From Acidobacteriota bacterium (GTDB lineage: Bacteria > Acidobacteriota > Terriglobia > Bryobacterales > Bryobacteraceae), in assembly GCA_016870915.1 (NCBI GenBank), contig VFZY01000009.1, positions 1-51,523 of the forward strand: DNA of 51,523 nucleotides, given 5' to 3'. Below the pieces are notes generated by a model, which searched no databases, was not told the origin of the DNA, and saw only the letters and a program-made list of their open reading frames with translations. The position numbers and the translations under genes were made by a program. This document shows, piece after piece, positions 38,381-41,219 of the stretch. The number at the start of each line of letters is the position of its first letter. Within the stretch, counting starts at the first letter, position 1.

Positions 38381-39535
38381 TCAGTACTTTGGAACCGACG
38401 GATCCACCTGATCGCTCCAGGCCAGAATCCCGCCCTTCATGTTGCGGACATGGCGGAAACCAGCCTGCCGCAGGAAGTCGCAAGCCTTGGCGCTGCGCAT
38501 CCCGCTCTTGCAGTGACAGATAATCTCGGCGGCCGGATCGAGTTCGTTCGCCCGCTTCGGCAGATCTCCCAAGGGAATCAGCTGCGCCGCGGGAATATTG
38601 CAGATCTGGTGCTCGTGCACCTCGCGGACATCGATCAGCACGAACCGGTCGCCGCGCGCCAGGCGTTCGGAAACTTCCTTCGGTGTAATATCGGCATCGG
38701 TCACAACCGGCGCCGGGGCTTCCTGGGCATGGGGCATGCCACAGAACTCCTGGTAATCGATCAGGCCCTTGATACGCGAACACTGTCCGGTCGGGCAGGC
38801 AGGGTCGCGGCGCAGTTTCAACTCGCGGAACCGCATGCCCAGGGCATCGTAGAGCATCAACCGGCCCTTGAGCGAATCGCCCTTGCCAAGAATGATCTTC
38901 ACCACTTCCGTCGCCTGAATCAGGCCCACCACGCCCGGAAGAATTCCCAGCACGCCGCCTTCGGCGCAGCTCGGCACCAAGCCCGGCGGTGGTGGTTCGG
39001 GATACAGGCAGCGGTAGCAGGGTCCGTCGTCGGTGGCAAACACACTCGCCTGCCCCTCGAACCGGAAGATCGACCCATACACATTCGGCTTGCCCAGCAG
39101 CACACAGGCATCATTCACCAGGTACCGCGTCGGGAAGTTGTCCGTTCCGTCCACCACCAGGTCGTAGTCCTTGATGATCTCCAGCGCGTTCTCGCTCGTG
39201 AGTGCCACTTCGTGCTTGATAATCTGGACGTTCGGATTGATGTCCATCATCCGGTCATAGGCGGAGTCGATCTTGGGCCGGCCCACATCTTTCGTGCCAT
39301 GGATAACCTGGCGCTGAAGATTCGTGTGATCCACCACGTCGAAATCAACCACCCCGATGCGTCCAATGCCGGCCGCGGCCAGGTACATGCCAAGCGGAGC
39401 GCCCAGGCCGCCGGTGCCCACCAGCAGCACACTCGACGACTTCAGCTTCAACTGCCCCTCCATGCCCACCTCGGGCATGATGAGGTGGCGGCTGTAGCGA
39501 AGTACTTCCTCGTTGCTCAGCGTGGGTGCACTCAT
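38381..39535 (-). CDS. moeZ: Adenylyltransferase/sulfurtransferase MoeZ (MoeB-rhodanese fusion)
   Basis: Enzyme of 384 residues that activates the C-terminal glycine of a ubiquitin-like sulfur carrier with ATP and then transfers sulfur to form a thiocarboxylate. The N-terminal E1-like domain has GTGGLG (40-45), FDVVDHTNLQRQ and DGTDNFPTRYLVND; the C-terminal rhodanese domain carries its active Cys342 in CKSGMRS. Length is near that of mycobacterial MoeZ. The first zinc pair is normal (CYRC), but the second is spaced C-PTGQ-C instead of C-x-x-C. Its ATG overlaps the carrier gene stop (ATGA), tying enzyme and carrier together as last gene of the cysteine operon. Confidence 0.9.
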   Translation of the reverse strand: MSAPTLSNEEVLRYSRHLIMPEVGMEGQLKLKSSSVLLVGTGGLGAPLGMYLAAAGIGRIGVVDFDVVDHTNLQRQVIHGTKDVGRPKIDSAYDRMMDINPNVQIIKHEVALTSENALEIIKDYDLVVDGTDNFPTRYLVNDACVLLGKPNVYGSIFRFEGQASVFATDDGPCYRCLYPEPPPPGLVPSCAEGGVLGILPGVVGLIQATEVVKIILGKGDSLKGRLMLYDALGMRFRELKLRRDPACPTGQCSRIKGLIDYQEFCGMPHAQEAPAPVVTDADITPKEVSERLARGDRFVLIDVREVHEHQICNIPAAQLIPLGDLPKRANELDPAAEIICHCKSGMRSAKACDFLRQAGFRHVRNMKGGILAWSDQVDPSVPKY

Positions 39536-39810
39536 GAACGGCCGCCGGCGATGCTGGGAACAATGGACAGCGTGTCGGAATCTTTCACCGCCGTTGCGTC
39601 CTTATCCAGGTACCGGATGTCCTCGTCGTTGACATAAACGTTGACGAAGCTCCGCAGCTTGCCCTCAGCGTTGTAAAGGTTGTTGCGAAGCGCCGGAAAC
39701 TGCGCCGTCAGCGCGCCCAGCACTTCACCAACCGTGGAACCGGCGGCAATCACTGCGTCCTGCTTATCGGTGAACTGGCGCAACGGGGTTGGAATGAGGA
39801 CTTTAGCCAT
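39532..39810 (-). CDS. cysO: Ubiquitin-like sulfur carrier protein CysO, with Arg-Ser tail
   Basis: Beta-grasp protein of 92 residues in the MoaD/ThiS family: MAKVLIPTPLRQF, GSTVGEVLGALTAQFP, LRSFVNVYVNDEDIRYL and SDTLSIVPSIAGG. In Mycobacterium the homologue carries sulfur as a C-terminal thiocarboxylate, which CysM adds to O-phosphoserine and Mec+ releases as cysteine. Such carriers must end in Gly-Gly. Here G89-G90 is followed by R91-S92 before the stop, read directly from GGC GGC CGT TCA TGA. The tail must therefore be removed before adenylation; the neighbouring JAMM protease is the obvious candidate. The start lies inside the protease gene (8-bp overlap). Confidence 0.88.
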   Translation of the reverse strand: MAKVLIPTPLRQFTDKQDAVIAAGSTVGEVLGALTAQFPALRNNLYNAEGKLRSFVNVYVNDEDIRYLDKDATAVKDSDTLSIVPSIAGGRS

Positions 39811-40231
39811 TTGATTCGGGAAACTCCAAAGGTTCTTTGTCGGCCGCCGTCTGGTCGGCGTTGGGAAGGAAGCTGTTCGCATGATCGAAGCGGCCTCCCT
39901 TGATGGATAGCACAACGAACGAGTACCAGGGGCAGGAATTCTCAAGGTCGGTCTTCGAGAAGTAGGCGTCGCAATCCGGATGCGAATGGAAGATGCCGAT
40001 CAGGTCGAAGCCGTTCTGGCGCGCATGGCGCTCGGCGCGCAGAAGATCCTCCGGGCTGATCTCGTAGCGGTCCTCCTGCGGACCGGTATAGGTGTTGGCC
40101 AAAGGCATTGCCTCCACCACCGTTTTGGTCTCACCACTGGGGCCGAACATGACACCGCAGCACTCGTTCGGAAACGTGGATTCCGCATGCTGAACCATCA
40201 CGGTCCAGGCGGCCGGTTCGATCTTAATCAT
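39803..40231 (-). CDS. mec: JAMM/MPN metalloprotease Mec+
   Basis: Zinc protease of 142 residues. The full JAMM motif is present: Glu23 in PNECCG and H82-x-H84-x7-S92-x2-D95. In Mycobacterium Mec+ hydrolyses the bond between the carrier protein's last glycine and the newly made cysteine. Related JAMM proteins of quinolobactin and homocysteine pathways instead, or also, trim extra residues off the carrier to bare its Gly-Gly end (family knowledge). Given the Arg-Ser tail on the adjacent carrier, this protein may do both jobs. The gene overlaps cysM by 8 bp upstream and the carrier gene by 8 bp downstream. Confidence 0.88.
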   Translation of the reverse strand: MIKIEPAAWTVMVQHAESTFPNECCGVMFGPSGETKTVVEAMPLANTYTGPQEDRYEISPEDLLRAERHARQNGFDLIGIFHSHPDCDAYFSKTDLENSCPWYSFVVLSIKGGRFDHANSFLPNADQTAADKEPLEFPESNG

Positions 40232-41171
40232 TCCAGAATGGCTCGCTCAGGTACTTGGCCGCCCCGTCGCACAACACAGTCACAATGACGCCGGGCCGGC
40301 CTTCGGCCACGAGCTGCCGGCCGATTTCGCGGGCCGCCACCAGGTTCGCGCCCGCCGAAATGCCGATCAGAACACCTTCCTCGCGTCCCGCGCGGCGGGT
40401 CATCGCGTAGGCGTCTTCGGTCTCAATCCAGTAGTTTTCGTCCGCCAGTTCGGGGTCGTAGATGCCCGGAACAATGGCCGTCGGCATGTGCTTCAAACCC
40501 TCCAGGCCATGAAAGCCAGAGGACGGCTGAGCGGAACAGCAACGCACATGCGGAAGATCCCGGCGCAAACGGCGCGTCGTACCCATAAAGGTTCCGCTGG
40601 TGCCCATGCAGGCCACGAAATGCGTGATCCGGCCGCCCGTCTGATCCATGATCTCGACCGCCGTGGTTTCAAAGTGCGACTTCCAGTTGGCCGGGTTGTT
40701 GTACTGGTCGGGATAGAAGTACAGATCCGGGTCCTGCTCGTAGACCTCGCGCACCCGCCGGATCGCCCCATCGGAGCCCTCAGCCGGGTCCGTCAGAATC
40801 ACCTCGGCGCCGAACGCATGCAGCATCCGCTTGCGCTCCTCGCTGGCGTTCGAAGGCAGACACAGACGCACCCGGTAGCCCCGCGAGGCGCCGATCATCG
40901 CATAGGCGATACCCGTATTCCCACTGGTCGAATCCAGAATGATCCGATCCCGGGTCAGCCTCCCGGTCTTTTCCCCATCCAGGATCATGTTGGCTGCCGG
41001 GCGGTCCTTCACCGACCCGCCAGGGTTCAGGAACTCCGCCTTCCCGTAGATCTCAATGCCGGGAAGATCCTCGCTCAGGCGCGGCAAATGGATAAGAGGG
41101 GTATTGCCGATCGCGTCGATGACGGATCCGGCCGCACCACGCGTAAACCGGTTCATTCGTGCCGCCAGCAT
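40224..41171 (-). CDS. cysM: O-phosphoserine sulfhydrylase / cysteine synthase CysM
   Basis: PLP enzyme of the fold-type II beta family. Marks: DAIGNTPLIHLPRL, Schiff-base Lys in NPGGSVKDRPA, the phosphate loop STSGNTG, MGTSGTFMG, and GISAGAN near the end. FHGLEGLKHMPTAIVPGIYDP resembles mycobacterial CysM, which accepts thiocarboxylated carrier protein instead of free sulfide. The start is uncertain: ATG 41192, 41171 and 41156 are all in frame. A predicted -10 box (TACAAT) overlaps ATG 41192, so initiation at 41171 (preceded by AAAAGGG) or 41156 is preferred. It is the first gene of a four-gene overlapping operon with mec, cysO and moeZ. Confidence 0.88.
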   Translation of the reverse strand: MLAARMNRFTRGAAGSVIDAIGNTPLIHLPRLSEDLPGIEIYGKAEFLNPGGSVKDRPAANMILDGEKTGRLTRDRIILDSTSGNTGIAYAMIGASRGYRVRLCLPSNASEERKRMLHAFGAEVILTDPAEGSDGAIRRVREVYEQDPDLYFYPDQYNNPANWKSHFETTAVEIMDQTGGRITHFVACMGTSGTFMGTTRRLRRDLPHVRCCSAQPSSGFHGLEGLKHMPTAIVPGIYDPELADENYWIETEDAYAMTRRAGREEGVLIGISAGANLVAAREIGRQLVAEGRPGVIVTVLCDGAAKYLSEPFWND

Positions 41172-41190
41172 GCCCTTTTCAAGAACTTTC

Positions 41191-41219
41191 ATTGTAGCGG
41201 ACTCGGGCAAATACCCCAA
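41191..41219 (-). promoter_or_regulatory. Possible promoter of the cysM operon
   Basis: Minus-strand TTGGGG (41219-41214), 17-bp spacer and TACAAT (41196-41191). The -10 match is good, the -35 match only TTG. It overlaps the first possible start codon of cysM, which argues for one of the later starts. Confidence 0.35.

Follow-up and report, generated by a model that had tools for sequence, protein, structure and literature searches.

Sulfur carriers encoded beside a JAMM metalloprotease in Acidobacteriota are encoded with their C-terminal Gly-Gly covered. All 106 JAMM-adjacent carriers in our survey of the phylum are masked, 45 of them by tails of 1–25 residues and 61 by in-frame fusion to the activating enzyme MoeZ. 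The carrier in the window, by which we mean the whole analysed stretch of 51,523 nucleotides, ends in SIAGGRS, its stop lying two codons past Gly-Gly. In the scheme that we favour, the neighbouring JAMM protease would first expose this Gly-Gly for MoeZ and later release cysteine from the same carrier.

A masked carrier in an overlapping four-gene operon

On the minus strand of the window, four overlapping genes follow one another in the order CysM-like synthase, JAMM protease, CysO-like carrier and MoeZ. Overlaps measure 8 nt between cysM and the JAMM gene, 8 nt between the JAMM gene and the carrier gene, and 4 nt (ATGA) between the carrier stop and the moeZ start. The features are as follows.

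40224..41219, minus strand: CysM-like cysteine synthase (PLP enzyme), first of the overlapping set; Pfam PALP 221.7 bits (cut-off 35)
39803..40231, minus strand: JAMM metalloprotease, Mec-like, 142 aa; Pfam Prok-JAB 84.2 bits (cut-off 25)
39947..39988, minus strand: JAMM motif HSHPDCDAYFSKTD (HxHx7Sx2D), read from the sequence
39532..39810 including the stop, minus strand (coding 39810-39535, stop 39534-39532): CysO-like sulfur carrier, 92 aa; Pfam ThiS 56.5 bits (cut-off 22.5), phmmer match to 3dwg_C
39541..39546, minus strand: codons of Gly89-Gly90, which must yield a free carboxylate for adenylation; read from the sequence, invariant in 39 of 39 aligned fusions
39535..39540, minus strand: masking tail Arg91-Ser92, with the proposed cleavage between Gly90 and Arg91; read from the sequence, relatives having other tails or a MoeZ fusion here
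38381..39535, minus strand: MoeZ (E1-like ThiF adenylyltransferase plus rhodanese); Pfam ThiF 275.8 bits, Rhodanese 61.8 bits

A preliminary description of this DNA had reported a carrier ending in GGRS beside an overlapping upstream JAMM gene with a complete motif, and all of this is read directly in the sequence. The top solved match of the carrier is 3dwg_C (phmmer, E 3e-18), whose aligned chain ends in Gly-Gly; we take 3dwg to be the CysM–CysO complex of M. tuberculosis. A longer carrier with a TTG start at 39945 was rejected because the ATG at 39810 aligns with the Met start of all 24 sequences. The synthase matches TIGR01138 cysM at E 1.9e-97 (326.3 bits, under the model cut-off of 394.2), has 'cysteine synthase B' 2bht as its top solved match and aligns at E 1e-58 with 3dwg_A, presumably the CysM partner of the CysO chain; its start may lie downstream of the listed TTG. 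In the protease, the metal-site residues, comprising a Glu upstream of the motif (E23), two His, Ser and Asp, are invariant in 27 of 27 aligned JAMM sequences, and the Glu plus HxHx7Sx2D site of Mec/JAMM peptidases is intact. The carrier has the ThiS fold and its gene lies among those of a CysM-like synthase and a JAMM protease at 38381-41219, as expected of the CysO type, and in place of an exposed C-terminal Gly-Gly it has GGRS; it is a masked variant of a CysO-type carrier. Residues past Gly-Gly and a clustered JAMM gene are likewise the hallmarks of the capped carriers in the QbsE/QbsD, HcyS/HcyD and PtmS2/PtmS1 pairs, and both are present here.

The contigs with names that lie nearest to the window come mostly from Bryobacterales, Solibacter and other acidobacterial MAGs. 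The source genome (6.6 Mb, completeness 96.9%) contains four ThiS-family matches and two Prok-JAB matches over the Pfam cut-off, the second barely so (25.8 versus 25 bits). CysE is also present in this genome, so the operon need not be its sole route to cysteine.

The carrier also scores above the NCBIfam SAMP1 cut-off (63.8 versus 60 bits), and the single NCBIfam match of the JAMM protein is the desampylase model, at 61.7 bits against a cut-off of 130, too low to class it as a desampylase. These matches favour an alternative in which the carrier is a SAMP-type protein modifier and JAMM its processing or deconjugating enzyme, cysteine synthesis being secondary or absent, much as SAMP1 and HvJAMM1 are described to operate in Haloferax (PMC4443979). 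Three relatives (L157, L004 and L346) score under the SAMP1 cut-off of 60, at 55.8, 58.8 and 57.3 bits. We consider a modifier role unlikely, because the cysteine synthase gene overlaps the JAMM gene, a PLP-synthase match lies within the retrieved stretch in 87 of the 94 JAMM-adjacent loci of the main phylum set described below, and among solved structures the carrier is closest to the CysO chain of 3dwg. A modifier would moreover need unmasking too, and hence does not compete with unmasking by JAMM as the first step.

The mask, and not its sequence, is conserved in the family

Within the family of the window, the carrier was found in 170 of 200 genomes (E 1e-10). Bare Gly-Gly ends occur in none of the 29 family loci read, of which 15 are tailed and 14 run in frame into MoeZ. 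Among 80 named loci, a set that shares some species with these 29, 79 are masked (44 tailed, 35 fused), and the remaining one (L099) is unjudgeable because its contig stops at the carrier end. Tails are diverse in their letters, including R, RS, RC, E, L, AL, LC and KNVR among others, and this variation indicates that what is conserved is the presence of a mask rather than its sequence. The preliminary description had suggested checking whether two-residue tails are conserved in related carriers; they are not, as tails beside JAMM span 1-25 residues with varied letters and more than half of the carriers are fused instead. Of the 80 named loci, 78 have a JAMM motif on the strand of the carrier; in the other two (L051 and L059) the sequence begins less than 150 bases before the carrier. 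Where the distance was measured, the motif comes first and lies 434-487 nt from Gly-Gly.

Masking accompanies an adjacent JAMM gene across Acidobacteriota

To survey the phylum we aligned 24 family carriers, trimmed the alignment at Gly-Gly and used it as the query, which detected carriers in 144 of 297 Acidobacteriota genomes. The main set comprises 153 carriers from 130 genomes in 43 families, and a second set comes from the other 14 genomes; all 144 genomes were read at least once, and second and third matches per genome were read in part. Matches ending before model position 89 were excluded, in the second set L369 and L370, both of which lack any Gly-Gly. We called a carrier JAMM-adjacent when a JAMM gene lies within 2.5 kb on the same strand, and JAMM absent when the genome has no match at E 1e-6. 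JAMM-adjacent carriers are masked in 94 of 94 cases in the main set (51 fused, 43 tailed, 31 families) and in 12 of 12 in the second (10 fused, 2 tailed). Where JAMM is encoded elsewhere in the genome, 22 of 35 carriers are masked in the main set and neither of two in the second; with 15 of these 37 bare overall, the presence of JAMM does not force masking. Where no JAMM was detected in the genome, 23 of 24 carriers end exactly at Gly-Gly and one is masked. The Glu and the motif were matched in 93 of the 94 JAMM-adjacent loci of the main set; the odd one out (L147) keeps HxHx7Sx2D, and its contig begins inside the gene.

The single masked carrier in a genome with no JAMM found (L148 in G339) is fused to MoeZ. 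The 652 bases readable upstream of it encode another gene, not JAMM, and the assembly is in 650 contigs and 91% complete, so that this is either a true exception or an assembly gap. The association in the main set has a Fisher p of 1.4e-23, a value inflated by the relatedness of the genomes and by the many bare carriers that are paralogues. An independent-pairs test of masked or bare state against JAMM gave 1-2 pairs when restricted to well supported branches and 5-6 when every branch was used, too few for significance; the pairs were mostly concordant or without difference, and a few random pairings contained one contrary pair.

Tails and fusions interchange while Gly-Gly stays covered

A tree of MoeZ built from 111 rows (110 different), which covers fused and tailed carriers because bare carriers had no full-length E1 directly downstream under our filters, shows 14 changes between the fused and tailed states, at least 10 of them on well supported branches. 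L207 lies outside this tree because its E1 alignment is split and falls under the 300-residue limit. Despite these many changes, not one of the 106 JAMM-adjacent carriers has a bare end, a turnover without exposure. Across 39 aligned fusions the internal Ala-Gly-Gly is invariant, the next eleven columns are variable and conservation resumes where MoeZ begins. One fusion was modelled with AlphaFold2 (mean pLDDT 83, pTM 0.58), and its residues 86-96, including the junction, have pLDDT below 50, as would be expected for an exposed linker.

In 70 unique fusion junctions Gly-Gly is directly followed by Ser, Ala, Thr, Val or Gly, with no instance of Pro. Over the nine residues that come next Pro accounts for 14.5%, and the chance of finding none directly after Gly-Gly is 2e-5 if junctions are independent; Pro is also absent from this position in 55 unique short tails (chance 0.009). 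Avoidance of Pro fits a protease that cuts this bond, although small residues could be favoured for other reasons. Re-initiation in place of true fusion was considered and rejected, since the linkers of 18 of the 66 fused loci lack any in-frame ATG, GTG or TTG. The linkers of all 66 together contain 7 ATG, 59 GTG and 18 TTG codons, a loose Shine-Dalgarno-like string lies upstream of 19 candidate linker starts, and MoeZ may be initiated separately at some fused loci. One genome (G465) encodes JAMM, carrier, ThiF and rhodanese domains in a single open frame of 617 aa; this triple fusion may instead reflect an assembly indel that joined overlapping genes.

In the window, the N-terminus of MoeZ, MSAPTLSNEEVLRYSRHLI, looks like a one-frame shift of the linkers seen in fused relatives. 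Arg-Ser may for this reason be a relic of gene fission. This likeness and the position of the carrier stop within the ATGA overlap with moeZ are compatible with a further alternative, in which the tail is a neutral by-product of that overlap or of a recent gene fission, any exopeptidase trims it and JAMM acts on CysO-cysteine only; the Mec+ enzyme of M. tuberculosis is indeed described for the release step (PMC3227635). Tails do not follow from overlap, however, since a stop context of ATGA, GTGA or TTGA occurs in only 16 of the 74 tailed carriers, and in 9 of the 36 bare ones. Bare carriers also lie directly beside cysM or E1 where JAMM is non-adjacent (L203, L204 and L207), an exopeptidase cannot trim fused proteins, and the ThiS and MoaD carriers encoded elsewhere show the same trend. 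A neutral tail is accordingly an improbable account of the mask.

ThiS and MoaD follow the same trend

We read ThiS and MoaD ends in 24 genomes selected to have or to lack JAMM, judging ThiS versus MoaD by eye from the ends; L339 and other weak or odd ThiS-fold matches, along with L297, which is unreadable at a contig end, were excluded from the two Fisher tests. Of 12 JAMM-bearing genomes, 8 have a masked and 4 a bare ThiS, against 0 masked in 10 genomes without JAMM (Fisher p 0.0017). MoaD behaves likewise, with 8 masked and 4 bare among 12 JAMM-bearing genomes and 0 masked among 9 without (Fisher p 0.0046). Seven of the masked MoaD proteins are fusions to a following MoaE-like domain and one has a two-residue tail; one MoaD fusion (L306 in G208) adjoins a second JAMM gene. 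In the source genome of the window, none of the four ThiS-family matches has a free Gly-Gly end: besides the CysO-like carrier there are a MoaD-MoaE-like fusion, a ThiS that continues for 21 residues past GGG and a MoaD-like protein whose end reads GG-RCARRS. These patterns hint that a single JAMM may serve several carriers.

These data bear on a third alternative, that another protease unmasks the carrier and JAMM merely marks lineages that keep the pathway. Such a protease would account for the CysO-MoeZ fusion of G339, and a precedent exists in the mycobacterial MoaD-MoaE fusion MoaX, whose cutting enzyme had not been identified as of 2015 in the available part of that report (PMC4326299). 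Against it, a Deinococcus JAMM is described to cut MoaD-MoaE and leave a C-terminal Gly (PMC8832034), and among our 24 genomes every masked ThiS or MoaD, encoded at other loci, comes from a genome that has a JAMM (L306 has its own JAMM neighbour, and the surroundings of the others were checked in part). We give a separate unmasking protease little credence and return to JAMM.

Carriers outside the phylum

Seven plasmid-collection records from outside the phylum were read. Where JAMM lies in the stretch, the Aliarcobacter carrier has a tail of one residue (Ile) and that of Burkholderia multivorans ends in the Arg-Ser tail found in the window, and the carriers of Nonomuraea and Tsukamurella have bare ends despite an adjacent JAMM. 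Three records without JAMM in the stretch have bare carriers. Masking beside JAMM thus held throughout the Acidobacteriota read and not in two actinobacteria, in which JAMM may serve the release step only, as in M. tuberculosis.

A proposed maturation and release scheme

Adenylation requires a free C-terminal carboxylate, as established for MoaD and ThiS, and a masked or fused carrier must therefore be cut after Gly-Gly. Where the carrier forms the N-terminal part of MoeZ the cut is obligatory, adenylation of an internal Gly being chemically impossible. The preliminary description had proposed, as a first step, that JAMM unmasks Gly-Gly before MoeZ acts; comparison of genomes supports this step well, with the mask tracking JAMM in three carrier families. 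By analogy with the Deinococcus enzyme that cuts MoaD-MoaE and with ptmS1 of Streptomyces, JAMM is the obvious candidate for the unmasking protease.

From the anatomy of the locus, the conserved mask, its co-occurrence with JAMM and the Gly-Gly kept inside fusions, we infer a cleavage site, a protease and an order of enzymes. The carrier would start as a precursor with its Gly-Gly capped, by Arg-Ser here and by MoeZ in more than half of its JAMM-linked relatives. JAMM would recognise the ubiquitin-like fold and cut after Gly-Gly, largely indifferent to what follows save Pro. The freed carboxylate would then be adenylated by MoeZ and converted to a thiocarboxylate, the CysM-like synthase would transfer the sulfur to an activated serine to give CysO-cysteine, and the same JAMM would hydrolyse the Gly-Cys bond to yield cysteine and bare CysO, a release step suggested by homology to Mec+ of M. 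tuberculosis. JAMM would act once per carrier molecule in maturation and again at every turnover in release. We judge this scheme, from capped precursor through unmasking, activation and loading to release, to be probably correct as a whole. A wider reading is possible, though we lean slightly against it: JAMM-adjacent carriers of Acidobacteriota would never be made active, being born capped or as carrier-MoeZ polyproteins (in one case JAMM-carrier-MoeZ), and one shared JAMM would gate CysO and often ThiS and MoaD, and hence the entry of sulfur into cysteine, thiamin and molybdopterin.

Discussion

Protease-dependent unmasking and two uses of one protease are already known in kind. In the HcyS/HcyD system, a JAMM protease first strips the residue that follows Gly-Gly and afterwards frees the amino-acid product, so that one protease serves two steps; compared with the window, the tail is one residue and the product is homocysteine rather than cysteine, and we know of no fusion of this system to an E1. 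QbsE of the thioquinolobactin pathway is also tailed past Gly-Gly and has a JAMM partner, QbsD, in a natural-product setting unlike that of the window. PtmS2 and PtmS3 of Streptomyces platensis, likewise from a natural-product pathway, are capped past Gly-Gly by two residues (MV) or by one (C), with the JAMM gene ptmS1 clustered with ptmS2 (PMC6006322). Capped carriers are described there as typically requiring a protease, knockout showed ptmS1 to be needed where capped carriers serve, and the available text describes no E1 fusion for the PtmS proteins (PMC6006322).

The CysO-CysM-Mec+-MoeZ system of M. tuberculosis comprises a homologous carrier, JAMM, synthase and E1-rhodanese, with Mec+ releasing cysteine from CysO-cysteine (PMC3227635). 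The solved CysO of that species ends in bare Gly-Gly and Mec+ is described for release, whereas in the window the carrier is masked and moeZ lies within the operon. Operon type 4c of Iyer et al. (2006) contains the same genes, namely ThiS/MoaD, E1-rhodanese, JAB and cysteine synthase, and includes the acidobacterium Susi (PMC1779556). These authors proposed that JAB may release fused ThiS or MoaD, and they described in Campylobacter a Ub-like domain, distinct from ThiS, at the N-terminus of ThiF (PMC1779556). Unlike the present survey, their description of type 4c, in the part available, makes no mention of capped ends, of carrier-MoeZ fusion or of a link between masking and JAMM (PMC1779556).

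Gly-Gly is likewise freed by cutting a fusion or propeptide in MoaX of M. tuberculosis, MoaD-MoaE of Deinococcus and archaeal pro-ubiquitin (PMC4326299, PMC8832034, PMC5654768). The cutter is a JAMM in Deinococcus (PMC8832034) and in the archaeon, where full-length pro-ubiquitin is described as refractory to E1 until Rpn11/JAMM cuts (PMC5654768). In these examples the partner of the carrier is MoaE or a short peptide, whereas here it is the activating enzyme itself. Our literature search, with most subscription journals outside its reach, returned no report of CysO-MoeZ fusions or of a phylum-wide link between masked carriers and JAMM. As far as we have searched, the phylum-wide masking rule, the widespread CysO-MoeZ polyproteins and the one JAMM-CysO-MoeZ triple fusion are new.

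An isolated two-residue tail thereby becomes a bench-testable rule over a large soil phylum, that masking of the carrier accompanies JAMM. The same rule can be used in annotating carriers whose ends seem wrong. Where carrier and activating enzyme form one polypeptide, bacteria have a counterpart of ubiquitin precursors, and proteolysis becomes unavoidable. Should a single JAMM mature CysO, ThiS and MoaD, the activity of this protease would set the supply of three sulfur pathways.

Other carriers and carrier fusions

The genome from which the window comes (G000) encodes two further carriers, on contigs C138 and C247 (loci L034 and L035): a ThiS that continues for 21 residues beyond GGG, and a second MoaD-like protein with the C-terminal end GG-RCARRS. 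The reading frame just upstream of the second MoaD-like gene resembles, by eye, a molybdenum hydroxylase. In genome G465, a single 617-aa open frame (L157:1337-3187) holds JAMM, a ThiS-fold carrier, ThiF and rhodanese; this frame may be a genuine triple fusion or else the product of a joining indel. JAMM was not found in genome G339, where locus L148 is a CysO–MoeZ fusion; the gene immediately upstream of this fusion resembles, as judged by eye, the menaquinone-pathway gene MqnD. A weak ThiS-like match in genome G307 (L339, C1:2123742-2123936) has Gly-Gly at its end, past which the frame stays open for 221 residues, into a further domain.

Three ThiS-fold paralogues from one genus have wholly lost the terminal Gly-Gly (L332 in G295, L369 in G322 and L370 in G364; VVTVVPSVGWKRPYGTI). 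Bare Gly-Gly carriers immediately precede a cysteine synthase gene in genomes G210 (L204), G238 (L203) and G251 (L249), all of which have JAMM elsewhere in the genome. At G419:C1:322588-323004, the JAMM match adjoining a carrier is interrupted by one internal TAG stop.

Loci under other taxon names

Bryobacterales-like operons occur on MAG contigs labelled Acidimicrobiia and Bordetella parapertussis (L053 and L074), record titles that are probably mistaken. An Aliarcobacter cibarius plasmid (L346) carries genes for cysteine synthase, JAMM, carrier and E1, with an IS110-family transposase separating JAMM from the carrier and an IS5-family transposase inside the E1 region. In Burkholderia multivorans, a distantly related carrier (L347, 2501-2773) lies near JAMM and E1 and terminates in Gly-Gly-Arg-Ser, identical to the end of the window's carrier.
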